Source: Microbacterium sp. T32 | Lineage (GTDB): Bacteria > Actinomycetota > Actinomycetes > Actinomycetales > Microbacteriaceae | Direction: 5' to 3' | Assembly (NCBI RefSeq): GCF_001619615.1 | Contig: NZ_LQQP01000077.1 | Span: 62,001 to 126,000, forward strand | DNA: 64,000 bases | Shown: piece after piece, positions 9,282 through 40,324 of the stretch | Position numbering within the stretch: position 1 is the first letter of the stretch | Layout: each line of letters opens with the position of its first letter | Made by a program: the position numbers and the translations under genes | The notes under the pieces: generated by a model | What the model saw: only the letters and a program-made list of their open reading frames with translations | The model's database searches: none | Told to the model about the DNA's origin: nothing

Positions 9282-9339
9282 AACGCGCTGGCGCACGACT
9301 CGGGGCATGCCGGAACATGGATCGGTCGAAGGAGACCCG

Positions 9340-10152
9340 ATGTCCCGCACCCCCGCCGCTGCCCCCGAATCGCTCCTCGCCGCCCCCGACCAGGCGACGC
9401 AGGACGAGATCACCCGCGAGATCCAGGCCGCGCACGCCGCGCTCGAGGCCCGCGAGGCCGCGGGCGAGCAGCTCCCCGCGACCGCGTACGACTTCCCCGC
9501 GTACCGGTCGAGCGTGCTCCGCCACCCCACGAAGAACCCGAAGCTCGTCGACCCCGAGACCATCGAGCTGTTCTCGCCCGCGTTCGGGCAGCGCGACGTC
9601 GCCGCGATCGAGTCGGACCTCACGCTGCAGCACGCCGGCGAGCCGCTCGGTGAGCGCATGACCGTGCGGGGGCGCCTGCTCGACTCGTGGGGGCGGCCGC
9701 TCGCGAATCAGCTCATCGAGATCTGGCAGGCCAACTCGGCGGGCCGCTACATCCACCAGCGCGACCAGCACCCCGCTCCGCTCGATCCGAATTTCACCGG
9801 TGCCGGCCGTGCGATCACGAACGACGCGGGCGAGTACGCCTTCACGACGATCAAGCCCGGCCCCTACCCGTGGAAGAACCACCGCAACGCCTGGCGTCCG
9901 GCGCACATCCACTTCTCGGTGTTCGGCACGTCGTTCACGCAGCGCCTCGTGACGCAGATGTACTTCCCCGGCGACCCGCTGTTCGCGCTCGACCCGATCT
10001 ACAACAGCATCCACCGGCAGAAGGACCGCGACGCCCTCGTCGGCGTCTACGACCACGACCTCACCTCCCCCGAGTGGGCCACCGGCTACCGGTTCGACAT
10101 CGTCGTCGACGGCCCCGACCAGACGTACTTCGAGCAGGAGGGCGACGCATGA
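9340..10152 (+). CDS. pcaH: Protocatechuate 3,4-dioxygenase, beta subunit
   Basis: A 270-residue intradiol dioxygenase subunit. All four non-heme Fe(III) ligands of the beta subunit are visible: Tyr137 (SAGRYIH), Tyr176 (KPGPYPWKNH), and His189 and His191 (RPAHIHFSV). With PcaG it opens protocatechuate to 3-carboxy-cis,cis-muconate. ATG 9340 has GAAGGAG eight nt upstream. It is the first gene of pcaHGBDC, and its stop overlaps the pcaG start (ATGA), so the two subunits are translationally coupled. Confidence 0.95.
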   Translation: MSRTPAAAPESLLAAPDQATQDEITREIQAAHAALEAREAAGEQLPATAYDFPAYRSSVLRHPTKNPKLVDPETIELFSPAFGQRDVAAIESDLTLQHAGEPLGERMTVRGRLLDSWGRPLANQLIEIWQANSAGRYIHQRDQHPAPLDPNFTGAGRAITNDAGEYAFTTIKPGPYPWKNHRNAWRPAHIHFSVFGTSFTQRLVTQMYFPGDPLFALDPIYNSIHRQKDRDALVGVYDHDLTSPEWATGYRFDIVVDGPDQTYFEQEGDA

Positions 10153-10697
10153 TCCCCCCGAAGACCCACCGCCCGACGCCCGGCCAGACGGTCGGCCCGT
10201 TCTTCGCCTACGGGCTGGAGTTCCCGAAGCAGCACGAGGTCGCGTCCCCGCACTCGCCCGGCGCGATCGTGCTCGGTGGCACCGTATACGACGGTGCGGG
10301 AGCCCCGATCCCGGATGCGCTGGTCGAGATCTTCGCGGCGGATGCCGACGGCTCGGTGTCCCGTGCGCGCGGCGCGTTCCGCCGCGACGACCACACGTTC
10401 ACCGGATTCGGGCGCGCCTTCACGAACGACGAGGGGCACTACGAGTTCTGGACGCGCGAGCCCGGTGGTACGGCGGCCTTCTTCGCGGCGATCGTGTTCG
10501 CGCGCGGCCTTCCGAACAAGCTGCACACGCGCATCTACGTCCCCGGCGACGACGCCGCGTTCGCCGCCGACCCGCTGCTGTCCTCGCTCGACGCGGACGA
10601 GCGCGCTAGCCTCGTGGCGACGCGTACGCCCGACGGACACCTCCACCACGACATCCGGCTGCAGGGCGAGAAGGAGACGGTCTTCCTTGCCTTCTGA
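10149..10697 (+). CDS. pcaG: Protocatechuate 3,4-dioxygenase, alpha subunit
   Basis: A 182-residue protein with the alpha-subunit opening TPGQTVGPFFAYGL and the beta-sandwich core LGGTVYDGAGAPIPDALVEI. As in the family, it lacks the complete iron ligand set and shapes the active site with PcaH. It overlaps pcaH by 4 nt and pcaB by 11 nt, indicating one operon. Confidence 0.93.
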   Translation: MIPPKTHRPTPGQTVGPFFAYGLEFPKQHEVASPHSPGAIVLGGTVYDGAGAPIPDALVEIFAADADGSVSRARGAFRRDDHTFTGFGRAFTNDEGHYEFWTREPGGTAAFFAAIVFARGLPNKLHTRIYVPGDDAAFAADPLLSSLDADERASLVATRTPDGHLHHDIRLQGEKETVFLAF

Positions 10698-12012
10698 CCC
10701 CCTCGACGCCGGGCTCCTCTCGCCGGCGACCGTCGGTCACGACATCCTCGTCTCGGATCGGGCGTACCTGGATGCGCTCGTCCGCGCGGAGTGCGCGCTC
10801 GTCACGGCCTACGCCGATCGGGGCGTCGCGCCCCGCGAGATCGCGGTCGCCGTGGATCACTCGTTCGGCCTGGACCAGAAGGACGGCTCGCCGTCGCTCG
10901 GCATCGACCTCGGCGCGCTCGCGGCCGCGTCGGTGGCCGGCGGCAACCCGGTGATCCCGCTCGTCGGCGAGCTGAAGGGCCGCGTGCCCGCCGCGTGCCG
11001 CCCCTGGATCCACCGCGGCGCGACGAGCCAGGACATCCTCGACACCGCGACGATGATCGTCGCGCGCGCCGCGGTCGCGCAGATCGTCGCGTCCCTCACG
11101 CACACCGGACAGTGGCTGCGGGCGCTCGCCGAGACGCACGCCGACACCGTCGCCGCGGCCCGCACGCTCACGCAGCACGCCGTCCCCACGACGGTCGGTG
11201 CGCGCGCGGCGGCGTGGGAGCGTGGCATCCATCGCTCGCGGGTGCGGCTGGAGGCGCTGGTGTTCCCCGCGCAGCTCGGCGGAGCGGCCGGAACCCTGGC
11301 GTCGTTCGTCGAGATCACGGGATCGGTGGATGCCGCTGCCGCCCTGCCCGCGGCGTACGCCGAGGCTGCGGGGCTCGACGTGCCCGACGCGCCGTGGCAC
11401 GTCACGCGGTGGCCGGTGACCGAGCTGGGCGACGCGCTCGTGCAGGCGATCGACGCGCTCGGCGCGTTCGCGGCCGACGTCGCGACCCTCAGCCGCACCG
11501 AGATCGGCGAGGTCGCCGAGGGCACCGGCGGCGGATCCTCGGCCATGCCGCAGAAGCAGAATCCGGCCGAAGCCGTGCTCCTCCGCTCCGCCGCGCTGCG
11601 CGCGCCGCAGCTGGCCGCGACGCTGCACCTGGCATCCGCTCTCGCCGTCGACGAGCGCCCCGACGGAGCCTGGCACGCCGAGTGGCCGACGCTGCGCGAG
11701 CTGCTGCGCCTCGCGCTGGGCGCGTCGTGGCACGCGTCGTCGCTCGCGGCGCACCTGCGCATCGACACGGATGCCGTGGCCCGGAACCTCGCGCTCACCG
11801 GCGGCCGCATCGTCAGCGAGCGCCTGCGCGGGGTGCTCGTGCCGCTGATCGGGGCGGACCGTTTCGCGGCGCTCGTCGGCGGCGACGGCGACCTCGGGGA
11901 GGCGCTGCGCGCGCTGCCCGAGACCCGCGACCTCGATCTCGACGCGCTGCTCGACCCGGCCGGCTACGTCGGCCTCGCGCCGCGCCTGGCCCGCACGGGG
12001 GACGCCCGATGA
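10687..12012 (+). CDS. pcaB: 3-carboxy-cis,cis-muconate cycloisomerase
   Basis: A 441-residue member of the fumarase/aspartase superfamily. The signature GGSSAMPQKQNP near residues 280-291 carries the catalytic Ser loop, and HRGATSQDILDTA near 116-128 is the second conserved region. It converts 3-carboxymuconate to 4-carboxymuconolactone. TTG 10687, ten nt after AAGGAG, is the start that gives the usual N-terminus (LSPATVGHDILVSD). It overlaps pcaG by 11 nt and pcaD by 4 nt. Confidence 0.93.
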   Translation: MPSDPLDAGLLSPATVGHDILVSDRAYLDALVRAECALVTAYADRGVAPREIAVAVDHSFGLDQKDGSPSLGIDLGALAAASVAGGNPVIPLVGELKGRVPAACRPWIHRGATSQDILDTATMIVARAAVAQIVASLTHTGQWLRALAETHADTVAAARTLTQHAVPTTVGARAAAWERGIHRSRVRLEALVFPAQLGGAAGTLASFVEITGSVDAAAALPAAYAEAAGLDVPDAPWHVTRWPVTELGDALVQAIDALGAFAADVATLSRTEIGEVAEGTGGGSSAMPQKQNPAEAVLLRSAALRAPQLAATLHLASALAVDERPDGAWHAEWPTLRELLRLALGASWHASSLAAHLRIDTDAVARNLALTGGRIVSERLRGVLVPLIGADRFAALVGGDGDLGEALRALPETRDLDLDALLDPAGYVGLAPRLARTGDAR

Positions 12013-12776
12013 TCGCGCTCACCGCCCCCGTCGGCCCCGCCGACGCGCCCCTCGTCGTTCTGGGGCCGTCGCTCGGCACATCGACGATCCTGTGGGAGGA
12101 CGTCGTGCCGCTGTTGGCCGACGACTACCGCGTCGCGGCGTGGGACCTCCCGGGCCACGGCGCGGGTCCGGTGGCGACAGGAGCGTTCACCGTCGCCGAC
12201 CTCGCCGATGCGGTCGCCGCCGCCGTCCCCGACGAGACGTTCCTCTACGCCGGCGTCTCGCTCGGCGGCGCGACAGGCCTCGAGCTGGCGCTGCGCCACG
12301 GCCCCCGGCTGCGCGCCGCCGCGATCGTGGCATCCGGAGCCCTGCTCGGTGAACCGCAGGGGTGGATCGACCGGGCCGCACAGGCGCGGACGCAGAGCAC
12401 CTCGAGCCTCATCATCGGTTCGGCGCAGCGCTGGTTCGCCCCCGACTCGATGGCCCGGCGCCCCGAGCTCAGCGGCCGCCTGCTGCACGTCCTGCAGGAC
12501 GCCGACGACGAGAGCTACGCCCGCTGCTGCGAGGCGCTCGCCGCGTACGACGTGCGGTCGTCGCTCGGTGAGATCAAGGTGCCGGTGCTCGCGGCGTGGG
12601 GGCAGTTCGACGCCGTCGCGCCCGAGGAGAAGGCCGTCGAGATCGCTTCGGGTGTGGCCGACGGCCGCGCGGTGCGCATCGACGACGCGGGTCACCTGCC
12701 GCCCGCGGAGCAGCCGGAGGCCGTGGCATCCGTCCTCCGATCCTTCTTCGCCACCGTCTCGGGAGACGATGCCTGA
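12009..12776 (+). CDS. pcaD: 3-oxoadipate enol-lactonase
   Basis: A 255-residue alpha/beta hydrolase. The nucleophile elbow GVSLGG has Ser84, and Asp201 (GQFDAV) and His229 (DAGHLPP) complete the triad. The early LGPSLGTSTILWE oxyanion region is typical of PcaD. It hydrolyses beta-ketoadipate enol-lactone to beta-ketoadipate. In many actinobacteria pcaD and pcaC are fused (pcaL); here they are separate but overlap by one base (TGATG). The next steps (3-oxoadipate CoA-transferase and thiolase) are not in the window. Confidence 0.92.
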   Translation: MIALTAPVGPADAPLVVLGPSLGTSTILWEDVVPLLADDYRVAAWDLPGHGAGPVATGAFTVADLADAVAAAVPDETFLYAGVSLGGATGLELALRHGPRLRAAAIVASGALLGEPQGWIDRAAQARTQSTSSLIIGSAQRWFAPDSMARRPELSGRLLHVLQDADDESYARCCEALAAYDVRSSLGEIKVPVLAAWGQFDAVAPEEKAVEIASGVADGRAVRIDDAGHLPPAEQPEAVASVLRSFFATVSGDDA

Positions 12777-13156
12777 TGGCCACCGACCAGGAACGCTACG
12801 ACCAGGGCATGGTGGTGCGCCGCGAGGTGCTGTCGGACGCGCACGTCGACCGCGCGACCGCCGCCGCGACCGAGCTCACCGCCGACTGGCAGGACTTCAT
12901 CACGCGCGTGGCGTGGGGCGACGTGTGGTCGCGGCCGGGTCTGGATCGTCGCTCGCGCTCCGTCGCGGTGCTGTCGTCGCTCATCGCCCACGGCCACCAC
13001 GAGGAGCTCGCGATGCACCTGCGCGCGGCGATCCGCAACGGCCTGACCATCGATGAGATCCGCGAGGTCATCCTGCAGTCCGCGATCTACTCCGGAGTCC
13101 CCGCCGCGAACACGGCGTTCCGCATCGCGTCCGAGGTGTTCCGCACGGACGCGTGA
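12776..13156 (+). CDS. pcaC: 4-carboxymuconolactone decarboxylase
   Basis: A 126-residue protein of the AhpD/carboxymuconolactone decarboxylase fold, containing WGDVWSRPGLDRRSRS and the AHGHHEELAMHLRAAIRNG helix. It decarboxylates 4-carboxymuconolactone to the beta-ketoadipate enol-lactone consumed by PcaD. It closes the pcaHGBDC operon; its TGA stop lies inside a short remnant of the 65-nt palindrome. Confidence 0.92.
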   Translation: MATDQERYDQGMVVRREVLSDAHVDRATAAATELTADWQDFITRVAWGDVWSRPGLDRRSRSVAVLSSLIAHGHHEELAMHLRAAIRNGLTIDEIREVILQSAIYSGVPAANTAFRIASEVFRTDA

Positions 13157-13256: not shown

Positions 13257-14558
13257 ATGCTTCTCGAAAGAGACCTCATCCAGTCCGTCGGATTCCGCAA
13301 CGTCCGCGAGGGCGGCGAGATCACCGGCTTCCAGTTCCGCGTCCGCATGCCGTCGTACCGCGGCATGGCCGCCTCCCTCATCGACGGAATCGGCGTGAGC
13401 ATCCCCGGGCTCGTCGACGTCGCCCCCGACGTGCCGCTGTGGACGCTGCAGGGGAAGCAGTACACGCTCGCCGAGCTGTGGGACGGCGACGGCGTGCGCT
13501 GGCCGCTCGAGGACGCGGCGATCGTGACCGTGCCGCTCCCGGGCGGTCTGCCCGACGGTGTGCACGAGCTGTCGATCGAGCTGCGGCTGCGCATGTCGTA
13601 CATCCCGCAGGAGCACCAGCCGAGCACCTACCGCGTGACCAAGCACGTCACCCTTGCGCCCGAGGCATCCGGTGCTCCCTTCCAATACGGCGTCTCGCTC
13701 TACAGCTACATGAGTGACTTCGGCACGGTCATGGACCTCGAGACCGCGATGGCCTCGATCGCCGACATCGGCGCGACGGGCCTCGAGATCCTCGGCGAGG
13801 CGCACATCCCGAACTACCCGAACCCCTCCGACGAGTGGGTCGAGCAGTGGTTCGCGCTGCTGCAGAAGTACGGCCTCGAGCCGACGAACTACGGCTCCTG
13901 GATCGACACGCGCCTGCACTCCAGCGGCCCGAACGCCCGCGACATGACCGCTGAAGAGGGCGCCGCCGTCCTGCAGCGCGACCTGCGCCTCGCGAAGCGC
14001 CTCGGTTTCCGGTTCGTGCGGCCGAAGATCGGCGTCGTCTCCAGCGACCTCGTCCCGCACCCGATCTGGACCGAGGCCGTCGAGGCCTCGCTGCCGCTGG
14101 CGGAAGAGCTCGACGTCATCATCTGCCCCGAGATCCATTCGCCGACGCCGATCAAGCACGAGGTGGTCGAGGACTACATCGCCCTCATCCGCCGCACCGG
14201 CACGAAGCACTTCCGGCTGCTGCTGGACACCGGGATCTTCCAGGACCGCCCGATTCCGCTCAAGCCCGGCGAGCTGCCCGGCCAGCGCCCGGCGTTCCTC
14301 GACGGCATCCATGTCGACCCCAACGACGTGTTCGACGTCATCGACAACGTGGTGTTCATCCAGGCGAAGTTCCACGACATCGACGAAGAGCTCGACGACA
14401 AGCAGATCCCGTGGGAGCCGGTGCTCCGCGCGCTGAAGGACGCCGGGTACACCGGCTACCTCTCGAGCGAGTACGAGGGCGAGCGCGAGCCGTGGCGCTC
14501 GATCGAGCAGGTGCGCCGCCAGCACTCGCTCATCCGCCAGATCGCCGACCGGCTCTGA
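13257..14558 (+). CDS. Fused C-glycoside deglycosidase-like enzyme (beta-alpha fusion), type I
   Basis: A 433-residue protein joining two families normally encoded separately. Residues 1 to about 135 are a small beta-sandwich of the DUF6379/CarC-DgpC type, ending in LSIELRLRMSYIPQEHQP. From about 142 (FQYGVSLYSYMSDFG) a TIM barrel of the CarB/DgpB sugar-isomerase type follows. Predicted metal ligands are Glu292 (CPEIH), Asp324 (LLLDTG), Gln369 (FIQAKF) and Glu405 (SSEYEG). Gln in place of His at the third position is also seen in the hydroxypyruvate isomerase family. Characterised relatives use Mn2+ to break the C-C bond of 3-keto-C-glycosides. The N-terminal domain is most like the 27504 gene in position and size. 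It is the first of two adjacent fusions, probably one operon. Confidence 0.75.
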   Translation: MLLERDLIQSVGFRNVREGGEITGFQFRVRMPSYRGMAASLIDGIGVSIPGLVDVAPDVPLWTLQGKQYTLAELWDGDGVRWPLEDAAIVTVPLPGGLPDGVHELSIELRLRMSYIPQEHQPSTYRVTKHVTLAPEASGAPFQYGVSLYSYMSDFGTVMDLETAMASIADIGATGLEILGEAHIPNYPNPSDEWVEQWFALLQKYGLEPTNYGSWIDTRLHSSGPNARDMTAEEGAAVLQRDLRLAKRLGFRFVRPKIGVVSSDLVPHPIWTEAVEASLPLAEELDVIICPEIHSPTPIKHEVVEDYIALIRRTGTKHFRLLLDTGIFQDRPIPLKPGELPGQRPAFLDGIHVDPNDVFDVIDNVVFIQAKFHDIDEELDDKQIPWEPVLRALKDAGYTGYLSSEYEGEREPWRSIEQVRRQHSLIRQIADRL

Positions 14559-14568
14559 GGCGGCCGCC

Positions 14569-16044
14569 GTGCCGAACGGACTGATCCACGACGACAGCCT
14601 CCGTCCCCACCCGGACGGGCTCGCGCTGCGCCTGACGATCCCCTGGTACCGCAGCCTGTGGCTGTCGTCGGTCACGTCGCTCGACCTCTCCGTCGACGGG
14701 GAGCGAGTGGATGCCGACGACCTCCGGTTCGAGCTCGGCGACCGCACGTACCGCCTCGACGACCTGCCGGAGCAGAGCGAGACGCTGTGGTTCCTGCAGC
14801 AGCACCCGCTGCTCGTGGCGCGGCGCGCCGAGCCCGTCGCCCTCGGCGAGACGCACGACGTCGTGCTGCACGGCGAGCTGCGGCTGCCCTACATGCAGAT
14901 CGCGCCCGGGGTCGACGGCGGACCCGGGATGTACGTGCCGAACGTGGTGCACGACGTGAAGACTCTGACGGTCGTCGACGCGGATGCCGCGCCCCCGGCG
15001 CTCGTGCACGAAGTGGCGCCGCCGCCGCCCGCCGTCGACGGCGACCCGTTCCAGCTCGGGCTCACGCTCTACTCCGCCAGCGCGGAGTTCCGCGCCGGGT
15101 GGTACGACTTCGACGGGCTGCTCGACCGGGTGGCGGAGCTCGGGATCGGGCCCGGCATCGAGATCGTGGCATCCCAGATGGTGCCGACGTATCCGGTCGT
15201 CGGCGACGACTTCGTGCGCACGTGGCGCGCGGCGTTCGACCGGCACGGGTTCGTCGCGAGCTCGTTCGGGGCGAACCTCGACATGGGCCGCCGCCGCGAT
15301 CGCGACATGACGCCGGACGAGGAGCTCGCCTTCTCGACCCTCATGTTCGAGGGCGCGAAGAAGCTCGGGTTCCCGCTCGTGCGCATCCAGTCGGCCAAGC
15401 CCGATCTCCTGCGCCGGCTGCTGCCGATCGCGGAGGAGCTCGAGCTGAAGCTCGCGTACGAGATCCATGCGCCGATGGGCCCGAACGCCGAGCCGATCCT
15501 GCGCGTGCGCGAGACGTACGCCGAGCTCGACTCGCCGCTGCTGGGCTTCGTCGCCGACTTCTCCTCGACCATGCACGCGATGTCGCCGACCCTGCTGCGC
15601 GCCGTCCGCCGCGCGGGGCTCGACGACGAGGCGGTCGCGCGTCTCCAGGAGATCTGGGCGACGGATGCCACCATGCAGGCGCGTCAGCAGGAGTTCCTCG
15701 GCTACCTCCGCGGCCGGGACTTCGACCCGGGGCGCCTCGGATCGTTCGCGCACCTCGCCTTCAACATGCACGGCCGCGTCGACCCGCGCGAGTGGGCCGA
15801 CATCATGCCGCAGATCCTGCACGTGCACGCGAAGTTCTACGACATCGACGACGACGGCGAGGAGCCGGCGATCGACTACCCCGAGCTCGTGCGCGTCTTC
15901 GTCGAGGGCGGCTACCGGGGCTTCTGGTCGAGCGAGTGGGAGGGCCACGCGTTCGCCGAACTCGGCGAGGTCGACCCGCTGCTGCTCGTCCGCCGCCAGC
16001 ACGACCTCATCCGCGCGTCGATGCGGGCGGTGCCGGCACTCTGA
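14569..16044 (+). CDS. Fused C-glycoside deglycosidase-like enzyme (beta-alpha fusion), type II
   Basis: A 491-residue fusion. Residues 1-136 are the beta domain (IPWYRSLWLS, LPEQSETLWF, PYMQIAPGVDGGPG), then an Ala/Pro-rich linker at about 137-158. The TIM-barrel alpha domain starts at about 160. Predicted metal ligands are Glu298 (YEIHAP), Asp330 (VADFSST), His420 (LHVHAKF) and Glu456 (SSEWEG). The beta part closely matches the separate 30883 gene and the alpha part the separate 29031 gene, so this gene is a natural fusion of that pair. GTG 14569 follows the previous stop by 10 nt, with only a weak GAGG. The substrate is presumably a 3-keto-C-glycoside. Confidence 0.75.
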   Translation: MPNGLIHDDSLRPHPDGLALRLTIPWYRSLWLSSVTSLDLSVDGERVDADDLRFELGDRTYRLDDLPEQSETLWFLQQHPLLVARRAEPVALGETHDVVLHGELRLPYMQIAPGVDGGPGMYVPNVVHDVKTLTVVDADAAPPALVHEVAPPPPAVDGDPFQLGLTLYSASAEFRAGWYDFDGLLDRVAELGIGPGIEIVASQMVPTYPVVGDDFVRTWRAAFDRHGFVASSFGANLDMGRRRDRDMTPDEELAFSTLMFEGAKKLGFPLVRIQSAKPDLLRRLLPIAEELELKLAYEIHAPMGPNAEPILRVRETYAELDSPLLGFVADFSSTMHAMSPTLLRAVRRAGLDDEAVARLQEIWATDATMQARQQEFLGYLRGRDFDPGRLGSFAHLAFNMHGRVDPREWADIMPQILHVHAKFYDIDDDGEEPAIDYPELVRVFVEGGYRGFWSSEWEGHAFAELGEVDPLLLVRRQHDLIRASMRAVPAL

Positions 16045-16103: not shown

Positions 16104-16154
16104 AATCTACTAAATGTCCTAATGTGATGTCTTAATTAGCAAGTTTAGTAGATT
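16104..16154 (+). promoter_or_regulatory. AT-rich inverted repeat before the fic gene
   Basis: AATCTACTAAA and its exact complement TTTAGTAGATT are separated by 29 nt, with a nested CTAAT/ATTAG pair, directly ahead of the fic ribosome-binding site. The stretch is strikingly AT-rich for this genome. It is a good candidate operator for the winged-helix C-terminus of the Fic protein itself. Confidence 0.5.
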
Positions 16155-16164
16155 GAGGAGCAGG

Positions 16165-17217
16165 ATGAGATCGTTCATCGACCTCGATCGCTTCATCGGA
16201 TCCGTGCCCTTCGACGTCGTAGCCTCGCTCCGAGCGGTCGACACCGGACGAGGGAGTGAAGCGCTCTTTCGGGACAAGCTCCCTGCTCTCCTCACCTCCC
16301 TCGCGGAGCGTGCGCGCGTGGCCAGCATCGAAGCGTCCTCCGCGATAGAAGGCGTGGTGGTGGCGGACCGAGCGAGAGCGGACGCCATTCTCGGCGGTGA
16401 AGTCACCGGTTTGCGTGACCGCAGCGAGCAGGAGCTCGCCGGCTACCGAGAAGCGCTCGACTACCTGTACCAGGAGCCCTGGCGGCCGCTGAACATCGGC
16501 CTCCTCCTGCACCTCCACCGGCTGTTGTTCCGGTACACGGACATGCCGGGCGGTGTGCTCAAGACCACGGAGAACCTCGTCGTCGACCGCCACGCGGACG
16601 GCAGCACGACCACTCGTTTCACCCCCGTCGCGCCGACCGAAACACCGGCCTACCTCGAAGAGCTGATCGCGCGGTATAGAGGCGCGATCGACGCCGACCG
16701 GCATCATCCGATACTGCTCGTCGGCCTGTTCGTTCTCGATCTGCTCACCATCCACCCGTTCGGAGATGGCAACGGGCGCATCACGAGAGCCCTCACGAAC
16801 GCTCTCCTCCAGGATGCGGGCTACGACGTGACGCGTTACGTCTCGCTCGAGGACCGCATCGCCCGGAGCGCCGATGCTTATTACGCCGGCCTGTTGGCCT
16901 CGACCCGCGGCTGGCACACCGGTGATCACGACCCGTGGCCATGGCTGCGCTACTTCGTCATCGTCGTTCGCGACTCCTACGAACAGTTTGCCGCGATCAC
17001 CGCCGCGAACCGTTCGACGGGGAGCAAGCAGGACCGCGTCCGCGACTACGTCACCAACCATGCCGCCCCGACCTTCCGCATGGCGGACATCCGCGCCGCC
17101 TTGCCGGGCGTCAGCGATCAGACGATCCGTCTCGCTCTCGACCAGCTCCGAGTCGCGGGGATCGTGCAATCGGACGGAGCCGGGCGCTCTGCCACCTGGA
17201 CTCGAATCGGCGGGTAA
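16165..17217 (+). CDS. Fic-domain protein with C-terminal winged helix (class II AMPylator type)
   Basis: A 350-residue protein. The catalytic Fic loop HPFGDGNGRITR occupies residues 197-208, with all canonical residues. An N-terminal autoinhibitory motif SSAIEG (58-63) fits the class II pattern S/T-x-x-x-E-G/N. The tail (about 285-350, FRMADIRAALPGVSDQTIRLALDQL) is a winged-helix DNA-binding domain. Such proteins transfer AMP to protein hydroxyls, and several also bind their own promoters. ATG 16165 has GAGGAG five nt upstream. It is not obviously part of the catabolic operons and stands between the fused deglycosidases and a convergent TetR operon. Confidence 0.85.
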   Translation: MRSFIDLDRFIGSVPFDVVASLRAVDTGRGSEALFRDKLPALLTSLAERARVASIEASSAIEGVVVADRARADAILGGEVTGLRDRSEQELAGYREALDYLYQEPWRPLNIGLLLHLHRLLFRYTDMPGGVLKTTENLVVDRHADGSTTTRFTPVAPTETPAYLEELIARYRGAIDADRHHPILLVGLFVLDLLTIHPFGDGNGRITRALTNALLQDAGYDVTRYVSLEDRIARSADAYYAGLLASTRGWHTGDHDPWPWLRYFVIVVRDSYEQFAAITAANRSTGSKQDRVRDYVTNHAAPTFRMADIRAALPGVSDQTIRLALDQLRVAGIVQSDGAGRSATWTRIGG

Positions 17218-25108: not shown

Positions 25109-25903
25109 ATGTACCAGCTCGCTCCGAACATCGAACTGCTCTTCACCGAGGCCGGTGACTACCACGACCGCGTGCGCGCGGCCGCCGCCGCCGGCTTCGA
25201 CGCCGTCGAGATGTGGGGACCCACCGGCATCGACGCACCCGCGACGCCCAAGGACCTCCCGGCCCTCAAGGTCGCGCTGGAGGAGACCGGTACGCAGCTC
25301 ACGGCGCAGCTGGCCGAGCCGCGCACGCAGTTCATGATCCCGCCGTGGGACCACTCGGAGTTCTACCGCAAGCTCGACGAGGGCGTCGCGATCGCGCAGG
25401 ACCTCGGCTGCCCGCGCATCGTCGTCGGCAGCGGCACGGGCTTCGGTGGTTGGAAGCGCCAGGTGCAGCTGGACAAGCTGATCGAGATCTACCGGAAGGC
25501 GATCGCGCAGATCGACGGCTCGGGCGTGACGCTCGTGCTCGAACCCGTGAACGTCCGCGTGGACCACCCGGGCTCGCTGCTCGACCGGACGTCGGAGGCC
25601 GTCTACGTCGCGCGCGGCGTCGACTCTCCGCAATTCGGTGTGCTGTACGACATCTACCACTCGGCCGTCGAGGGTGAGGACATGGAGGCCGAGCTCGCGA
25701 ACGCGGGCGACCTCATCGGATACGTGCAGCTCGCCGACGCCCCCGGCCGTGGGGAACCGGGGACGGGCGACCTCGACTGGGCCGAGCGCTTCCGCCTCCT
25801 GCGCGCGAGCGGCTACGACGGGCCTATCGGCCTGGAGTACTACCCGACCACCGAGTCCGCGGCATCCGTCGCCCACATCGTCGAGCTGGGGCGGACGGCA
25901 TGA
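25109..25903 (+). CDS. Hydroxypyruvate isomerase-like TIM-barrel sugar isomerase
   Basis: A 264-residue AP-endonuclease-2-fold protein. Metal ligands are suggested by LVLEPVN, VLYDIYH, YVQLADAPGRGEPGTGD and GLEYYP, which match the Glu/Asp/Gln/Glu pattern of the Hyi family. It would interconvert a keto/aldo sugar or keto acid released from the imported glycoside. ATG 25109 follows GAAAGGACC. Its stop overlaps the GMC oxidase start (ATGA), so the two are translationally coupled. Confidence 0.8.
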   Translation: MYQLAPNIELLFTEAGDYHDRVRAAAAAGFDAVEMWGPTGIDAPATPKDLPALKVALEETGTQLTAQLAEPRTQFMIPPWDHSEFYRKLDEGVAIAQDLGCPRIVVGSGTGFGGWKRQVQLDKLIEIYRKAIAQIDGSGVTLVLEPVNVRVDHPGSLLDRTSEAVYVARGVDSPQFGVLYDIYHSAVEGEDMEAELANAGDLIGYVQLADAPGRGEPGTGDLDWAERFRLLRASGYDGPIGLEYYPTTESAASVAHIVELGRTA

Positions 25904-27414
25904 GCACGCGCGAGTACCCGGAATCGGTCGACGTCGCGATCGTCGGCAGCGGTCCGACGGGCGCCGCGTACGCCCGCGTGCTCTCGGAACGGGCACCCGG
26001 CCTCACCATCGCGATGTTCGAGGTGGGCCCGACCGTGTCCGACCCGCCCGGCGCGCACGTGAAGAACATCGCCGACCCCGCCGAGCGCACGCGCGCTCAG
26101 GGCGCGTCCGAGGGACCGGGGGAGCGGGGCACGAAGGTCGCCAGCCCCGGTGCCGCAAAGGCCGGAGTGCGCGGGGCGCGTCCCGGAACGTTCCTGCTCG
26201 AGGACGGCTACGTCTTCGAAGGGGAGGACGGTCTGCCGGTCGCGGCGATGTCGAGCAACGTCGGCGGCATGGCCGCCCACTGGACCGGCGCGTGCCCGTG
26301 GCCCAACGAGAGCGAGCGCATCGCGTTCCTTCCCGACATGGACGAGCTCCTCGTCGAAGCGGAGCGTCTGCTCGGCGTCACGCGAAACGCCTTCGACTCC
26401 GCCCCGTTCGGGGAGATCGTGCGCGAGCGCCTGGCGGCCGCGGTCGACGCCGGCCGCACCGAGGCGACGAAGGTGCAGCGGATGCCGCTCGCCGTGCACC
26501 GGCGCGATGACGGCCGCCTGGTGTGGTCGGGATCGGACGTCGTCCTGGGGGACGCCACGCGGGCGAACCCGGGATTCGCGCTCCTCGACGAGTCGCTCGT
26601 GACCTCGGTGGTGCTCGCCGACGGGCACGCCGCCGGCGTCGTCGTGCGCGACCTCCGGTCGGGCGAGGAGCACGAGATCGCCGCGCGGGCGGTCGTCGTC
26701 GCCGCCGACGCGCTGCGCACCCCGCAGCTGTTGTGGGCGTCGGGCATCCGCCCGGCCGCGCTCGGCCGCTACCTCAACGACCAGTCCCAGGTCGTCTACG
26801 CCTCCCGCCTTCGCGACGTCGTCGCGCTCGGGGACGACTCCCCGACGACCGGGCTCGCCGAGTACAGCGGCGTCAGCTGGGTGCCGTTCACCGACGCCGT
26901 GCCGTTCCACGGGCAGATCATGCAGCTCGACGCCTCGCCGATCGCGCTCGCCGAGGACGACCCGGTCGTGCCGGGCTCGATCGTCGGTCTCGGCCTGTTC
27001 TGCGCGAAGGACCTGCGGGCCGACGACCGCGTCGAGTTCGACGACGCGCACCGCGACGGATACGGGATGCCGGCTCCCCGCATCCACTACGTCCTCACCG
27101 ACCGCGACCACGAGGTGATCGAGCGGGCCCGCGCGGAGATCACGCGTCTGGCCGAGGCGATCGGCGATCCGGTCGGCGACCGTCCCTTCACCCTGCCGCT
27201 CGGTTCGTCGCTGCACTACCAGGGCACCACGCGCATGGGGACCGAGGACGACGGGACGAGCGTGTGCGACGTCGACAGCCAGGTCTGGGGCGTCCCGGGT
27301 CTGTTCGTCGCCGGTAACGGCGTCATCCCCACCGCGACGGCGTGCAATCCCACGGTGACGTCCGTGGCGCTGGCGGTCCGCGGGGCCCGCGCGATCGCGG
27401 CATCCCTTGCCTGA
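25900..27414 (+). CDS. GMC-family FAD sugar oxidase, CarA/pyranose-oxidase-like (C-glycoside 3-oxidase candidate)
   Basis: A 504-residue flavoprotein. It opens with an ADP-binding fold IVGSGPTGAAYARVLSE (about 10-26) and an FEVGP tail. Near the C-terminus are SLHYQGTTRMG (His439) and CNPTVTS (Asn483), the GMC active-site pair. Its length and motifs fit the FAD-dependent C-glycoside 3-oxidase CarA described from Microbacterium, which makes the 3-keto-glycoside that deglycosidases require. It is coupled to the isomerase upstream and lies 90 nt before a deglycosidase operon. It could instead oxidise O-glycosides or free sugars. Confidence 0.75.
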   Translation: MSTREYPESVDVAIVGSGPTGAAYARVLSERAPGLTIAMFEVGPTVSDPPGAHVKNIADPAERTRAQGASEGPGERGTKVASPGAAKAGVRGARPGTFLLEDGYVFEGEDGLPVAAMSSNVGGMAAHWTGACPWPNESERIAFLPDMDELLVEAERLLGVTRNAFDSAPFGEIVRERLAAAVDAGRTEATKVQRMPLAVHRRDDGRLVWSGSDVVLGDATRANPGFALLDESLVTSVVLADGHAAGVVVRDLRSGEEHEIAARAVVVAADALRTPQLLWASGIRPAALGRYLNDQSQVVYASRLRDVVALGDDSPTTGLAEYSGVSWVPFTDAVPFHGQIMQLDASPIALAEDDPVVPGSIVGLGLFCAKDLRADDRVEFDDAHRDGYGMPAPRIHYVLTDRDHEVIERARAEITRLAEAIGDPVGDRPFTLPLGSSLHYQGTTRMGTEDDGTSVCDVDSQVWGVPGLFVAGNGVIPTATACNPTVTSVALAVRGARAIAASLA

Positions 27415-27503: not shown

Positions 27504-27911
27504 GTGATCCCGGATCGCATCATCGAACAGGGCACGCTGAGTGCCCGTGACGGACGGGCGGCGGTCGAAGTGCGCCTGCCCTGGTACCGCGCGCTCCCGG
27601 CATCCTGCATCTCCGCCGCCAAGCTCACGATCGACGGGATCGAGGCGCCGGCCGAGACCCTGCGCTGGGAGATGAACGGCGAGGAGTTCACGTTCGCCGA
27701 GATGAAGACGAACACGCAGGAGTGGTGGTTCCCCACCGACTCGGCGGTTCTCTCGGGTGACCTGGCGGTGGATGCCGGTGAGCACGAGGTCCGCGTCGAT
27801 CTGACGCTCTACATCCCCTACATCATCATCGCCGACGACGAGGTGCTCCACATCGAGGAGCACGACACCAAGACGATGGCGGTCCGTCAGGCCGAGGAGG
27901 CTCTCGCATGA
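27504..27911 (+). CDS. C-glycoside deglycosidase beta subunit-like protein (DUF6379, CarC/DgpC type)
   Basis: A 135-residue small beta-sandwich protein, the size of known CarC/DgpC subunits. Family landmarks are VEVRLPWYRALP near residues 21-32, TNTQEWWFPTD in the middle, and VDLTLYIPYIII towards the end. In characterised enzymes this subunit packs on the TIM-barrel partner and helps form the active site. GTG 27504 is 5 nt after AGGAGG. Its stop overlaps the alpha-subunit start (ATGA), which pairs the two proteins. Confidence 0.75.
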   Translation: MIPDRIIEQGTLSARDGRAAVEVRLPWYRALPASCISAAKLTIDGIEAPAETLRWEMNGEEFTFAEMKTNTQEWWFPTDSAVLSGDLAVDAGEHEVRVDLTLYIPYIIIADDEVLHIEEHDTKTMAVRQAEEALA

Positions 27912-29011
27912 CCGCGCAGAAGGGCACGCCCATCCAGGGCGTCACGCTGTACAGCTTCACCCGCGCGTTCCACGGGCGCGAGTACGACCTCGACCAGCTC
28001 ATCCGCAAGACAGCGGCCGAGGGATTCGGCCCGGGCCTCGAGATCATCGGGTTCTCCAGCTTCCGTGGGTTCCCCGAGATCGACGACCACTTCGCCGGAC
28101 GCTTCTCCGACCTGATCGACGAGGTCGATCTCGTCCGCACGTCGCTCGCGGTCAACGCCGACATCGGTCTGCGTCCCGACCAGCTGATGGACCAGGACGA
28201 GCTCATCGCCTATATGCGCCGGCAGATCGCGGCGGCCGCGAAGCTCGGCTTCCCGATCGCCCGTGTGCAGATCTCGCTCACGCCGGACTCGATGGAGGCT
28301 CTCGCGCCCATCGCCGAGGAGTACGGCGTCACGCTCGCCCTCGAGGTGCACGCCGACCAGTACGCCTCGCACCCGCGGATCCTCGCGCTCCGCGACCGCT
28401 ACGAGCGGGTCGGGTCGCCGTTCCTCGGCTTCACGATGGACTGGGGCGCCACCGTCATCGGCTTCGCGCCCTCGCTCCTCGAGGCGTACCGCCGCCGCGG
28501 CGCGTCGGAGGAGTTGCTCGCCGCCGTCGTCGCCCTGTGGGACGAGTACTACGAGCAGGGCCCGCCCGCCGACCAGGCCGACCACGGCCAGCGCTTCGGC
28601 CGCTTCATCGGCCTTTCGCACCAGTACGGCCGCCCCGACCTCGGGATCGATCTCGGCATCAACGGCACCGGCCTCTTCGGCCCGGCGCGGGTCGACGACT
28701 GGCTCGAGATCATGCCCTGGGTCCGGCACGTGCACGGCAAGTTCTTCGGCATCGACGAGAACGGCCAGGAGCCCTCGGTGCCCGTCGCCGACCTCATCAC
28801 GCTGCTCGTCGACAACGGCTACAGCGGCGCCGTCTCGAGCGAGTACGAGGGCTGGCACTGGAACCACTGGCAGAGCCCGTTCGAGATCATCCGCGCCGAG
28901 CAGGCGATCCAGCGCACCGCCGCCGACGCCGCCGGCTCCCGGATGATCACGGATGCCGCCGAAGCTCGGCGCGCCATCGACGCCCACCTGTCGCACGCCG
29001 TGCGCGCCTGA
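27908..29011 (+). CDS. C-glycoside deglycosidase alpha subunit-like TIM barrel (CarB/DgpB type)
   Basis: A 367-residue sugar-isomerase-fold protein. Predicted metal ligands are Glu146 (LALEVHAD), Asp178 (TMDWGA), His276 (RHVHGKF) and Glu312 (SSEYEG), matching the Mn2+ site of CarB/DgpB. With the coupled 27504 product it would eliminate the aglycone from a 3-keto-C-glycoside, leaving an anhydro-keto sugar. A 45-residue C-terminal helical extension (AEQAIQRTAADAAG onward) is longer than in its paralogues. Confidence 0.75.
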   Translation: MTAQKGTPIQGVTLYSFTRAFHGREYDLDQLIRKTAAEGFGPGLEIIGFSSFRGFPEIDDHFAGRFSDLIDEVDLVRTSLAVNADIGLRPDQLMDQDELIAYMRRQIAAAAKLGFPIARVQISLTPDSMEALAPIAEEYGVTLALEVHADQYASHPRILALRDRYERVGSPFLGFTMDWGATVIGFAPSLLEAYRRRGASEELLAAVVALWDEYYEQGPPADQADHGQRFGRFIGLSHQYGRPDLGIDLGINGTGLFGPARVDDWLEIMPWVRHVHGKFFGIDENGQEPSVPVADLITLLVDNGYSGAVSSEYEGWHWNHWQSPFEIIRAEQAIQRTAADAAGSRMITDAAEARRAIDAHLSHAVRA

Positions 29012-29030: not shown

Positions 29031-30065
29031 ATGACGGACGGCATCGCCGGGACCGGCATCCAGCTCGGGACCACCCTCTACTCGATGACGAGCGAGTTCG
29101 CCGCGGGGCTGTACACGCCGGAGACGCTGATCCGCGAGGTGCACGACCAGGGCATCGGCCCGGGCGTGGAGTTCAACTTCGCGCAGCTGCTGCGGTCGTA
29201 CCCCGACGTGGACGACGACTTCGTGAAGCTGTGGTTCGACTCGCTGGAGAAGTACGGCCTCGAGGCCAGCGCGGTCGGCACCAACCTCGACATGGGGCGC
29301 CGCAAGGACCGCGACATGACGCCCGACGAGGAGCACGACTTCTTCGCGCGCCAGCTGAAGTCGGCGCACACGCTCGGCTTCACCAGGGTCGTCATCCGCT
29401 CAGCCGGCAAGGAACTGCTCCGCCGCCTGCTGCCCCTCGCCGAGAAGTACGACCAGAAGCTCGGCTACGAGATCCACGCGCCCTCCGGCCCCAACGACCC
29501 GAAGGTGCTCGAGATCCGCGAGGTGTACGAGGAGCTCGGCAGCGACCGCCTCGGGTTCACCGCCGACTTCTCCTCGACCATGCACTCCCTCTCCCCGACG
29601 CTGCTGCGCACGCTCGGCCAGATGGGCATGGACGAGAAGCACTTCCCGGTCATGGACGAGATCTGGCACGAGCCGACCCCCATGCACGTGCGCAATCAGA
29701 AGTTCGAGGACTACCTGTCGGGCGAGGGCGTGGACCCGCTGCGCTTCGGGCCGTTCACGCGCCTCGCGTTCAACATGCACGGGCTGGTGCCGCCGGAGGA
29801 GTGGCTCGACATCATGCCGCAGATCTTCCATGTCCACGCGAAGTTCTACGACATCGGGGCCGACGGCCAGGAGCCCGCCATGGACATTCCGCGCATCGTG
29901 AAGCAGTTCGTCGAGGGCGGATACCGGGGCTACCTCTCCAGCGAGTGGGAGGGCCACGCCTTCAGCGACCTCGGCGAGAGCGACCCGATCGACCTCGTCA
30001 AGAAGCAGCACGCCCTCATGCGCACCGCCATCGAAGAAACCGTCGCCGCGCGCCAGCCGGCCTGA
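29031..30065 (+). CDS. Second C-glycoside deglycosidase alpha subunit-like TIM barrel
   Basis: A 344-residue protein with Glu147 (YEIHAP), Asp179 (TADFSST), His269 (FHVHAKF) and Glu305 (SSEWEG) as predicted metal ligands. It is closely similar to the C-terminal part of the fused 14569 protein (NLDMGRR, RDMTPDEE, FSSTMH and HVHAKFYDI all match). Its natural partner is therefore likely the 30883 beta subunit, two genes on, rather than 27504. ATG 29031 follows GAAAGGACA. Confidence 0.75.
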   Translation: MTDGIAGTGIQLGTTLYSMTSEFAAGLYTPETLIREVHDQGIGPGVEFNFAQLLRSYPDVDDDFVKLWFDSLEKYGLEASAVGTNLDMGRRKDRDMTPDEEHDFFARQLKSAHTLGFTRVVIRSAGKELLRRLLPLAEKYDQKLGYEIHAPSGPNDPKVLEIREVYEELGSDRLGFTADFSSTMHSLSPTLLRTLGQMGMDEKHFPVMDEIWHEPTPMHVRNQKFEDYLSGEGVDPLRFGPFTRLAFNMHGLVPPEEWLDIMPQIFHVHAKFYDIGADGQEPAMDIPRIVKQFVEGGYRGYLSSEWEGHAFSDLGESDPIDLVKKQHALMRTAIEETVAARQPA

Positions 30066-30882: not shown

Positions 30883-31299
30883 GTGGCCACCCACAACTCG
30901 CTCTTCGCCGAGAAGGACGTCCGTCGTACCGACGACGGGCTCGCCGTCTCGGTGCAGCTGCCGTGGTACCGGAGTCTCTGGCTCTCGGCCGTCGACGGCG
31001 TCGCCGCGTCGGTGAACGGTGTCGCGGTCCCGACCGAGGACCTCCGGTTCTCGCTCGAGGGCCGCGAGTACCGCGTCGAGGAGCTGCCGGAGCAGTCCGA
31101 CACCCTGTGGTTCGTCGCCGACCGCCCCGACGTGCTGATCCACCTCGACACGCCGCCCGCGGCGGGCGAGAAGATCACCGTCGAGGTGGTCCTGACGATG
31201 CGTCTGCTCTACATGCAGATCATGCCGGGCGTCGACGGCGGACCCGGTCGCTACGTCACGAACCGCGTGCCGGTCGAGCGCGAGTTGGTGCTGGCATGA
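30883..31299 (+). CDS. Second C-glycoside deglycosidase beta subunit-like protein (DUF6379)
   Basis: A 138-residue protein with QLPWYRSLWLS, DLRFSLEGREYRVEELPEQS and YMQIMPGVDGGPG. It is the closest relative in the window of the beta domain of the 14569 fusion, so it should pair with the 29031 alpha subunit. GTG 30883 uses AGGAG that overlaps the stop of the preceding gene. Its own stop overlaps the Gfo dehydrogenase start (ATGA). Confidence 0.75.
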   Translation: MATHNSLFAEKDVRRTDDGLAVSVQLPWYRSLWLSAVDGVAASVNGVAVPTEDLRFSLEGREYRVEELPEQSDTLWFVADRPDVLIHLDTPPAAGEKITVEVVLTMRLLYMQIMPGVDGGPGRYVTNRVPVERELVLA

Positions 31300-37921: not shown

Positions 37922-38877
37922 CACGCCACCTTCTCGTTGTAGATGCCGTCCAGCACGTTCTTGGCGTACCAGCGCGAGATCGCGGTGCTCTCGGCGTAGT
38001 CGCCGCCGAGCTTGTCGGCCTTGTCGTGCTCGACGCTGATCCAGCCGGTGTACGCGTTGTCGCGCACCGAGCGCATCATCGCCTCGAAGTCGACGAGCCC
38101 TTCATCGGTGCCCATCTCGTAGAACCATTTCTCGGTCGTCTTCGCCGAGACCTCGGCATCCGGGAACATCCGATAGTCGTCGTTGACGTCCTTGTGGCGG
38201 GTGTCCTTGAAGTGGAAGCCCGTCACGCGCTCGTGGTGCTTCTCGTACACGGCGACCGGGTCGACGTCGGCGATGCAGTGCTGCGCGGTGTCGACGAAGA
38301 ACTTCACGTAGCGCGGGTCGGCGTAGGAGTAGAAGCGGTCGATCTGGTCGCGCGTGCGGATGCCGGCGTAGAACTCGTGGTGGCAGGTGAGGTTGACGCC
38401 GTACTGCTGCGTGAGCTCGCCGACCTTTCCCCAGATATCGGCCGCGTGCTTGAGGCCGTCGTCGGGCACGCCGGCCTCGTCGAAGTACCGCGATCCGGGC
38501 ATCACGATGATGTTGTCGAGCTGGATGCCGGACCACATGTCCAGCGTCCGCTGGAAGTCCTCGAGGATCGTGGCGTGCGTCGCGGGCACCTCGGGTGCGT
38601 AGCGATCGGGCGAGTAGTAGACGCCGTGGAACGTGTTGACGATCCGCTCGAGTCCCTGCTCCTGCACGAACTCCTGGTAGTTGGCCACCGACCCGTACTG
38701 CTCGAAGATCTGCCAGATCCGGAAGTCGAAGGTGTCGATCGCGTCGAACCCGACCGCCGCGACCTGCTGCAGGAAGCGCTTCATCGCGAGGCGCGACTGC
38801 CATTGGTCGTAGGGTCCGGCGGGTCCTTGGGCCCGCCAGTGGTCCATATAGCTCCACTTGATGGGTCGATCGGTCAT
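37921..38877 (-). CDS. Sugar phosphate isomerase/epimerase (TIM barrel)
   Basis: A 318-residue protein beginning IKWSYMDHWRAQGPAG, with TCHHEFYAG, KFFVDTAQHCIAD, TGFHFKDTRH and WISVEHDKAD as metal-site strands. It overlaps its upstream neighbour (ATGA), is third in the operon, and carries the C-terminal SRWYAKNVLDGIYNEKVA seen in similar form in 36932. The two are probably ancient duplicates acting in sequence or as a complex. Confidence 0.75.
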   Translation of the reverse strand: MTDRPIKWSYMDHWRAQGPAGPYDQWQSRLAMKRFLQQVAAVGFDAIDTFDFRIWQIFEQYGSVANYQEFVQEQGLERIVNTFHGVYYSPDRYAPEVPATHATILEDFQRTLDMWSGIQLDNIIVMPGSRYFDEAGVPDDGLKHAADIWGKVGELTQQYGVNLTCHHEFYAGIRTRDQIDRFYSYADPRYVKFFVDTAQHCIADVDPVAVYEKHHERVTGFHFKDTRHKDVNDDYRMFPDAEVSAKTTEKWFYEMGTDEGLVDFEAMMRSVRDNAYTGWISVEHDKADKLGGDYAESTAISRWYAKNVLDGIYNEKVA

Positions 38878-39887
38878 GGCGTGCTCGCTTTCTGCAGCGT
38901 TTCGGAGGGGTGACGGTCGGAGAGGAGACCGGCGGCCAGCGAGAGATGACGCGAGGTCGTCTCCCACGGGTCGTCGTCGAGCCACTCCTGGCCGCCCCAC
39001 TCGCTGCAGAGCGTGCCGGTGAAGCCCGTCGCGGCGAGGGCGGTGCCCACGTCGCGGATCGGGTCGGAAATTCGATCGTCGGCGTCGTCGAGATCCCAGA
39101 ACTTCAGGTGGACCCCGCCGAGCAGGGGCAGGACGGATGCCACATCGGCGATGTCCGAGCGCCCGAAGCGGACGAGCAGGTTCATGTACAACGTGTCCAC
39201 CGGCCCCGGGACGCGCCCCGACCGCAGGTGGTCGATGACGGCGCCGTGGGTCTCGGGCTCACGCCAGTGGTCGCGCAGGCGGGCCACGAGAGCCGGGTCC
39301 ACGCCACCGCGAGAGAGGGCGTCGAGGTAGGACACGGGGAGCGCCGGCATGAGCATGCTGATGTCCAGCAGCAGCCGGACGCGCGGGCTGTCGATCGCCG
39401 CGATCCGCGCGTACGCCTCGGGTACCGCGGCGGGAGTCCCGTGCCCCTGTGCCTCCTCGTACAGCACGAGGTCGAGCTCCTCGAGCAGCGGCAGCGCGCG
39501 CTCGAGCAGCGCGCCCGCCTGGCCGAGCGGGAGACGCACGCCCTGCGCGCCGAGCGCGGCGGAGGTGCGCAGCTGCGGTTCGAGGAACGCCAGGCGCTCG
39601 TCGTCGGTGCGGCGGTGATGTCCGTCCCACTCGTCGATGCTCACGCCGACGATGCTCACGCGTCCGCCCGCGGCGTCGAGACGCTCCTGCAGGGCGCGGG
39701 CCTCGGCGAGCGTGGCCGCCGGGTAGCCGCGCCACAGCTGCCCGAGCTCCACCTCGATCGCGGAGGCGAGGCCGCGTTCGACGAGCGTCAGGGCGAGGTC
39801 GGGCGCCGTGCGCTCGGCGCGCACGACCTCGGGCGTGAGGTTGAACGCGCTCGCCGAGAGCGTCCAGCCCGCGGGCAGCGCGCTCAC
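38874..39887 (-). CDS. Third separate deglycosidase alpha subunit-like TIM barrel
   Basis: A 337-residue protein of the CarB/DgpB type. Predicted metal ligands are Glu144 (VLYEEAQG), Asp175 (LLLDIS), His260 (GVHLKFWD) and Glu296 (CSEWGG). It is the most divergent of the alpha copies: EEAQ replaces the usual EIHA. GTG 39887 overlaps the beta-subunit stop (GTGA), pairing it with 39884-40297. Confidence 0.7.
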   Translation of the reverse strand: MSALPAGWTLSASAFNLTPEVVRAERTAPDLALTLVERGLASAIEVELGQLWRGYPAATLAEARALQERLDAAGGRVSIVGVSIDEWDGHHRRTDDERLAFLEPQLRTSAALGAQGVRLPLGQAGALLERALPLLEELDLVLYEEAQGHGTPAAVPEAYARIAAIDSPRVRLLLDISMLMPALPVSYLDALSRGGVDPALVARLRDHWREPETHGAVIDHLRSGRVPGPVDTLYMNLLVRFGRSDIADVASVLPLLGGVHLKFWDLDDADDRISDPIRDVGTALAATGFTGTLCSEWGGQEWLDDDPWETTSRHLSLAAGLLSDRHPSETLQKASTP

Positions 39888-40297
39888 GCGAGGCTCCCGA
39901 CGTCGCGCGAGACGCCCGTCGTCGAGGTCTCGGTGTCCAGCGCACGGGTGAAGAAGAAGGGAAGGGCGAGGGGCCCGTCGGGTCCGCCGTCGAGGTACGG
40001 CACCTCGAGACGGAACGACACCGACACCTCGTGGATGCCAGGGCTCGCGGCATCCGTCACGTGCAGGGCGACGCGGTCCTGTACGTGCCACCACCGGGTC
40101 TCGGCCTCGAGGGCGGCGGGATCGACGCGGCGGTCGCCGAGCTGGACCGTCGCGGGCAGGGGGCGACCGTCGATCCGCACCTCGGGCTCGACGAGACCGG
40201 CGAGGGGGAGTGAGCGGATCCACGGGAGGGAGAGCCGGAGGGCATACCCGTCGGGGAGGATGTGCAGCGCATCGTCGCGCAGCGCGGACAGGACCAT
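39884..40297 (-). CDS. Third separate deglycosidase beta subunit-like protein (DUF6379)
   Basis: A 137-residue protein with LRLSLPWIRSLPLAG, ETRWWHVQDRVAL and VSFRLEVPYLDGGPDGP, matching the family pattern. It is coupled to the 38874 alpha subunit. A -10-like TAGATT lies about 15 nt before the ATG and no Shine-Dalgarno sequence is evident, so the mRNA may be leaderless. The promoter shares an element with the 27504 operon. Confidence 0.7.
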   Translation of the reverse strand: MVLSALRDDALHILPDGYALRLSLPWIRSLPLAGLVEPEVRIDGRPLPATVQLGDRRVDPAALEAETRWWHVQDRVALHVTDAASPGIHEVSVSFRLEVPYLDGGPDGPLALPFFFTRALDTETSTTGVSRDVGSLA

Positions 40298-40304
40298 AAG
40301 CCCT

Positions 40305-40324
40305 GAATCTACTGACTAATGTCG
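40305..40324 (-). promoter_or_regulatory. Promoter element of the minus-strand deglycosidase operon
   Basis: On the minus strand CGACATTAGTCAGTAGATTC carries TAGATT as a possible -10 and repeats the CGACATTAG-N3-GTAGA pattern found at 27436-27456. It lies between the ROK regulator stop and the operon's first ATG. Confidence 0.45.

Follow-up and report, generated by a model that had tools for sequence, protein, structure and literature searches.

C-glycoside deglycosidases (CGDs), which remove the sugar from C-glycosides of plants, are described in the literature consulted as enzymes of two subunits. Section 8 of PMC8563793 presents them in this way and characterizes AgCGD2 of Arthrobacter globiformis (AgCarB2-C2, PDB 7DNM/7DNN) as an alpha-beta heterodimer, and the passages dealing with CGDs in PMC12141560, PMC12724307, PMC10646112, PMC13273386 and PMC10628242 likewise speak of two subunits. 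EuCGD (DfgA-DfgB, PDB 7BVS) and PuCGD/PuCGE (DgpB-DgpC, PDB 7BVR and 7EXZ) also consist of two chains. A single chain of 435 residues has been deposited as PDB 8QRZ ('Microbacterium testaceum C-glucosyl deglycosidase (CGD), wild type'; public since 2025-04-23) and as the cryo-EM entry 8UN2. We found no paper on 8QRZ in the open literature searched; a journal behind subscription may carry one. Here we report on a window of 64,000 nucleotides from Microbacterium sp. T32 (contig NZ_LQQP01000077.1, positions 62,001 to 126,000), in which two adjacent genes, cgd1 and cgd2, each encode the beta and the alpha part of a CGD in one chain. The two stem from independent fusions, and we consider it probable that both products are single-chain 3-oxo-C-glycoside lyases; partner fidelity would be the likeliest advantage of the joined state.

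Both genes and their domains lie on the + strand of the window. The reading frame of cgd1 (13257..14558) starts with ATG and encodes 433 amino acids, that of cgd2 (14569..16044) starts with GTG and encodes 491; neither contains an internal stop. They are arranged head to tail with ten bases from the stop of cgd1 to the start of cgd2. In cgd1 the beta domain (PF19906 CGDB; 13257..13655) is joined by a short linker of about eight residues (APEASGAP, residues 134-141; 13656..13679) to an alpha triosephosphate isomerase (TIM) barrel of the EuCGD-like lineage (13680..14555). In cgd2 the beta domain (14569..14970) is followed by a Pro/Ala-rich linker of some 24 residues at about residues 135-160 (14971..15048) and by a TIM barrel of the AgCGD2-like lineage (15049..16041). 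Thus the two beta-alpha fusions and the Ala/Pro-rich linker of cgd2 noticed in the first-pass annotation are real. In 46 of the 49 rows, which include a few duplicates, this linker kept its length although its letters varied.

Pfam detected the PF19906 domain (cut-off 27.6 bits) at residues 3-115 of cgd1 with an E-value of 8e-32 and 109.8 bits, and at residues 16-108 of cgd2 with 1.2e-13 and 51.3 bits. The AP_endonuc_2 barrel (PF01261, cut-off 31.1 bits) was found at residues 167-415 of cgd1 (4.9e-19, 69.4 bits) and at residues 186-469 of cgd2 (3.7e-7), where 30.5 bits fell slightly below the cut-off. Both proteins nevertheless belong to the CGD alpha barrels, the alpha part of cgd2 by virtue of 432 bits to chain A of 7DNM and a fold match with Z 44.1. 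Neither protein was matched by NCBIfam. Each is one chain and differs in this from the heteromeric CGDs with their separate chains. As a beta-alpha fusion inside the EuCGD-like lineage cgd1 is a single-chain CGD of the 8QRZ type; cgd2 belongs to a separate fusion.

An error of sequencing or assembly that joined two genes was considered as a trivial explanation. It is excluded because intact, full-length copies in a single frame recur across the genus: cgd1 gave 63 such matches in 62 of 295 genomes and cgd2 was intact in 59 of 295. Among the 67 genomes matching cgd1 at E <= 1e-60, the exceptions were G037, G093 and G099 with the alpha part only (53-55% identity), G225, in which the gene is interrupted by contig ends, and G090, which matched residues 31-430 at 49%. 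An additional alpha-only match was present in three of the 62 genomes (G061, G166, G204). For cgd2, 68 genomes matched; five of them (G020, G043, G144, G198, G274) did so via an AgCGD2-type paralog only, and G265 contained a fragment. In G130 (L092), G236 and G090 the cgd2-type gene is broken into pieces in different frames, which may represent secondary fission, a pseudogene or sequencing error.

The search for the PF19906 domain covered overlapping samples of the genus (68 of 295 genomes with a match), the family (20 of 299), the order (15 of 396) and the class (5 of 394). Of 29 loci with named cgd1 relatives 27 were from Microbacterium. The remaining two are the two-gene CGD of a Neomarinimicrobiota bacterium and L027, a contig of 3 kb that bears the name Stenotrophomonas maltophilia and carries a Microbacterium-like fused gene; its label is likely due to contamination. 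Besides the genus and the PDB entries 8QRZ/8UN2, single-chain CGDs were found at loci L085, L089, L091 and L088.

The origin of the two fusions was analysed with phylogenetic trees, which were midpoint-rooted for drawing only. In a tree of 134 alpha-domain rows the fused state required two changes. In a tree of 47 rows, hand-picked from these 134, a single fused group was present in 0% of 200 bootstrap trees, and constraining the fused rows together cost 260.6 log-likelihood units with p = 0.0009 in the approximately unbiased (AU) test. cgd1 sits inside the EuCGD-like clade, of which the other members in the 47-row tree are two-gene enzymes. cgd2 adjoins two-gene enzymes of the AgCGD2 type, and its domains are nearest to the alpha and beta chains of 7DNM and not to 8QRZ. 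In three related loci (L042, L049, L053) an unfused cgd1-type pair occupies the same slot before a fused cgd2. On the basis of these trees the fusions of cgd1 and cgd2 arose independently, from different two-gene lineages. The first-pass annotation had spoken of two tandem fusions. This holds for two adjacent fused genes; a tandem duplication is rejected by the two changes in the tree and the AU test.

We also considered the opposite polarity, with an ancestral fused state and two-gene CGDs as products of repeated fission. Breakage does occur, as shown by the cgd2-type gene in two frames in G130. Yet in the midpoint-rooted trees the fused genes form narrow clades amid unfused relatives, including the enzymes from the gut and from Deinococcus, and parsimony counts two changes, so that we regard an ancestral fusion as very improbable.

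A third fused lineage was seen at L088 (G1164), where two PuCGD-like fused genes lie in tandem in a genome of the same order with 7% estimated contamination. Furthermore, cgd1-type fusions occur in other families (L085, L089, L091). As independent events these were unsupported, because a single origin of the cgd1-type fusions was not rejected (AU p = 0.189 without L085 and 0.176 with it). For this reason we held the count at three. The trees thus point to at least three fused CGD lineages in the order, i.e. the cgd1 type, the cgd2 type and the PuCGD-like genes of L088. An alpha tree with added loci (46 of the 134 rows and 19 new ones) required six changes, four of them forced by strong branches and one of the six being the broken gene of G130. 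The tree of the beta domain, which offers few columns and is poorly resolved, required four changes, three forced by strong branches. One of these four came from L027, where the gene is cut by the contig end and hence labelled unfused; the fused row L056 stood on a long, weakly placed branch next to unfused rows. The 134-row alpha tree and the beta tree omit the copies from the window (L001-L008), L074 as the same gene as L031, domains that were too short and, by choice, L010, L012, L014, L019, L020, L022, L024, L030, L033, L034, L036 and L068. Some rows are doubled due to an overlap of L039 and L062.

The junctions of unfused relatives suggest how the genes could have been joined. In 13 of 14 listed cgd1-type pairs the alpha start and the beta stop share a 4-base overlap (ATGA or GTGA), L059 being the exception. 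With such an overlap a small indel can join the frames. cgd1 may have come from a two-gene EuCGD-like ancestor by a net shift of one base close to the overlap. For cgd2 we envisage a two-gene AgCGD2-like ancestor that fused with a longer Pro-rich linker. In L057 and L061, two unfused relatives of cgd2 with beta-alpha order, the start of alpha lies downstream of the first base of the beta stop, by 13 and 15 bases. We infer that indels or the loss of a stop codon produced the fusions.

The ease of this mutation raises the question whether the fusion has any function of its own, or whether a chance indel in an overlapping pair was retained by drift since the product folds. The survival of unfused cgd1-type genes beside fused cgd2 at L042, L049 and L053 would fit drift. 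On the other hand, at least three lineages were fused separately, the length of the cgd2 linker is nearly constant despite its varying letters, and fused forms have long been conserved across many species. We therefore judge drift alone to be rather unlikely.

The residues of the active site were assigned by alignment with AgCGD2, for which section 11 of PMC8563793 and a discussion passage outline the roles. Both proteins keep the equivalents of AgCGD2 Glu147, His149, Asp179, Lys271 and Glu305, as do all 73 fused alpha rows. The metal site comprises E292, D324, Q369, K371 and E405 in cgd1, with H294 as the catalytic histidine, and E298, D330, H420, K422 and E456 in cgd2, with H300. The difference in the third ligand, reported in the first-pass annotation as Gln369 versus His420, was confirmed, as both residues align with AgCGD2 His269. 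cgd2 is of the Mn-site subtype with 1His/2Glu/1Asp/1Lys that is found in AgCGD2, PuCGD and EuCGD; cgd1 stands outside because Gln369 replaces the histidine. Glutamine at this position was shared by 8QRZ, all 16 unfused rows that group with the cgd1 type, 5 of the 12 rows in the DaCGD group and a single further unfused row. Histidine was seen in EuCGD and L037, which lie farther out in the cgd1 clade. Thus the Gln/His difference is not a consequence of fusion, because the unfused cgd1-type relatives share the glutamine, which appears to predate the fusion in this lineage.

According to PMC10628242, as far as the part consulted goes, PuCGE alpha on its own leaves 3-keto-C-glucosides uncleaved, and Tyr39 of beta is required. 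This tyrosine aligns with Tyr34 of cgd1 and Tyr27 of cgd2. An equivalent was present in all 103 fused beta rows, of which 98 are distinct; among the unfused rows 73 of 77 had it. These data bear on the possibility that the fused proteins have 3-oxo-O-glycosides as their main substrates or serve to hydrate 3-oxo-glycals, and that the cleavage of C-C bonds falls to two unfused CGDs of the window (pairs 3 and 4, see below). In the same source PuCGE is reported to cleave 3-keto-O-glucosides, too; several paralogs in one island may have split the work, and a metal ligand of cgd1 has changed. Yet the tyrosine needed for C-glycoside cleavage by PuCGE is invariant in the fused rows and missing in 4 of the 77 others, and the ortholog of cgd1 was deposited as a C-glucosyl deglycosidase. 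A main role on O-glycosides or glycals is thus unlikely in our view.

The structure of cgd2 was predicted with AlphaFold2 from an alignment of 91 sequences. These were taken from 100 after dropping six rows of a divergent fifth pair, the long-branch alpha row of L061 and the alpha and beta rows of pair 3 from L056. The model had a predicted local distance difference test score (pLDDT) of 95.2 and a predicted template modelling score (pTM) of 0.92. The predicted fold was compared with AgCarB2-C2 domain by domain. Over 336 residues alpha superimposed on AgCGD2 alpha with a root-mean-square deviation (rmsd) of 2.1 A and a Z of 44.1, and beta, fitted separately from alpha, on AgCGD2 beta with 1.7 A over 135 columns. 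Against the whole 8QRZ chain the rmsd was 17.7 A with a template modelling (TM) score of 0.52, normalized to the model length, although the alpha part alone fitted 8QRZ with 2.5 A over 293 residues. Because the whole chains fit poorly though alpha alone fits, the beta domain seems to be placed differently relative to the alpha domain of its own chain in the cgd2 model and in 8QRZ. As a lead rather than a result, one of the two may swap beta domains between chains; 8QRZ would be the candidate because its linker is short.

The fused genes are not the only CGDs in the window. Pair 3 is a two-gene CGD with its beta subunit at 27504..27911 (+) and its alpha subunit at 27908..29011 (+), the latter in ATGA overlap with its beta gene. 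Pair 4 is a two-gene enzyme of the AgCGD2 type with alpha at 29031..30065 (+; 642 bits to 7DNM chain A) and beta at 30883..31299 (+). Between these two genes lies a SnoaL_4 (PF13577) gene at 30092-30874, with relatives of 55-89% identity in 9 of 89 CGD loci. A divergent, fifth CGD-like pair is encoded on the - strand (38874-40315), with alpha at 38874..39887 in GTGA overlap with its beta gene at 39884..40315, where the start is putative and PF19906 scored 24.5 bits, below the cut-off. Its alpha protein has glutamine at the position of the catalytic His149, as have all 7 of 7 rows of the type (five distinct proteins). Isoleucine takes the position of Tyr39 in its beta protein and in two relatives. 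From these residues the fifth pair probably catalyses a different reaction.

A GMC oxidoreductase gene at 25900..27414 (+) had pyranose oxidase as its best NCBIfam match, with 223.9 bits under a model cut-off of 544.9. Judged by sequence it is likely a C-glycoside 3-oxidase which supplies the CGD substrate. A Gfo/Idh/MocA gene is located near this oxidase and pairs 3 and 4, about 10 kb downstream of the fused genes. GMC oxidases like that of the window (41-74% identity) were present in 26 of 89 loci, though many of the remaining ones were too short to extend that far, and one adjoins the fused gene of L085. The company of GMC oxidases at CGD loci supports the usual two-step path of C3 oxidation and C-C cleavage.

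Directly upstream of cgd1 a pca gene set (7142-13156) encodes the beta and alpha subunits of protocatechuate 3,4-dioxygenase, a 3-carboxymuconate-cycloisomerase-like protein and a protein of the carboxymuconolactone decarboxylase family. A 4-hydroxybenzoate 3-monooxygenase-like gene also lies upstream. Perhaps the pca set degrades the freed aglycone. Its link to cgd1 is not general because, of the 28 Microbacterium-type loci L009-L036, 14 had pcaC upstream of cgd1 within the available DNA. Directly 3' of cgd2 is a gene with a Fic domain (16153-17217), which has a close relative in 2 of 89 loci (L011, L033).

On this basis we propose that sugar C3 of a C-glycoside would be oxidized first, probably by the GMC oxidase, and that the fused enzyme would then cleave the C-C bond by an elimination, assisted by the metal and the histidine, in the pocket that alpha and beta form between them. 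The benefit of fusion may lie in partner fidelity and a stoichiometry fixed at 1:1, given that the cell has four or five paralogous sets of alpha and beta: a fused pair would be safe from sequestration by a paralog. In line with this, the beta subunits of PuCGD and EuCGD could not be exchanged in pull-downs (section 11 of PMC8563793). Outside the genus, 16 of 21 genomes with at least two PF19906 matches had fused genes, against 1 of 10 genomes with a single match (Fisher p = 0.0012, kinship ignored), as tallied by hand from the PF19906 searches of genomes and the domain maps of loci.

Several observations weigh against this proposal. cgd1 lacks the metal ligand His269, as does the solved M. 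testaceum CGD, and section 11 of PMC8563793 reports a dramatic drop in the activity of PuCGD and MiCGD when His269 is replaced by alanine. The oxidase is located some 10 kb away from the fused genes. The association with copy number takes no account of kinship, and the single-copy genome G1135 (L085) carries a fused gene. Pairs 3 and 4 are unfused although a drive for fidelity would predict their fusion. Finally, published CGD subunits already pair specifically. Thus we put partner fidelity forward tentatively, as a possible advantage. In an extended and slightly more doubtful version, fusion was convergent at least three times in the order as an insulation against mispairing with paralogs, with the long linker of cgd2 allowing in-chain folding and the short-linker cgd1 type perhaps swapping its beta domain between chains.

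The recurrence of separate fusions suggests that joining the halves of a CGD is repeatedly favoured. Fused and two-gene paralogs in one genome provide a natural experiment on the change from heteromer to single chain, and for the cleavage of C-glycosides or its reverse a lyase in one chain may be easier to use as a biocatalyst than a complex of two subunits.

Compared with the known systems, cgd1 is closest to the solved M. testaceum CGD. Residues 1-433 align with 8QRZ/8UN2 without gaps, with 94% identity over 288 alpha columns, the same glutamine at the position of the third ligand and the same order of fusion, and the two group together at 100/99 support. By this comparison cgd1 is an ordinary ortholog from which nothing essential differs. 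A fused CGD had appeared undescribed in the first-pass annotation. For cgd1 this did not stand, because 8QRZ/8UN2 is already a single-chain ortholog. For cgd2 it stood as far as we searched, with no fused relative among solved structures or in the literature covered. The nearest characterized two-chain relative of the cgd1 lineage is EuCGD, which is published, in the part of the source consulted, as an alpha4-beta4 complex and has histidine as third ligand in contrast to the glutamine of cgd1. PuCGD/PuCGE shares the domain pair and the class of chemistry, yet it has two chains and is remoter from both proteins of the window. 8QRZ is of a different lineage than cgd2, and the superposition of the whole chains is poor. 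The nearest solved chains for each domain of cgd2 are those of AgCGD2, with which it shares the full metal site and the catalytic histidine; AgCGD2 is built from two chains, cgd2 from one in the order beta-alpha, and the ortholog of AgCGD2 within the window is pair 4 and not cgd2. With a complete, His-containing metal site and a confident model, cgd2 appears to represent a second single-chain CGD that evolved separately, and the new element with respect to the known enzymes is the independent and recurrent fusion.

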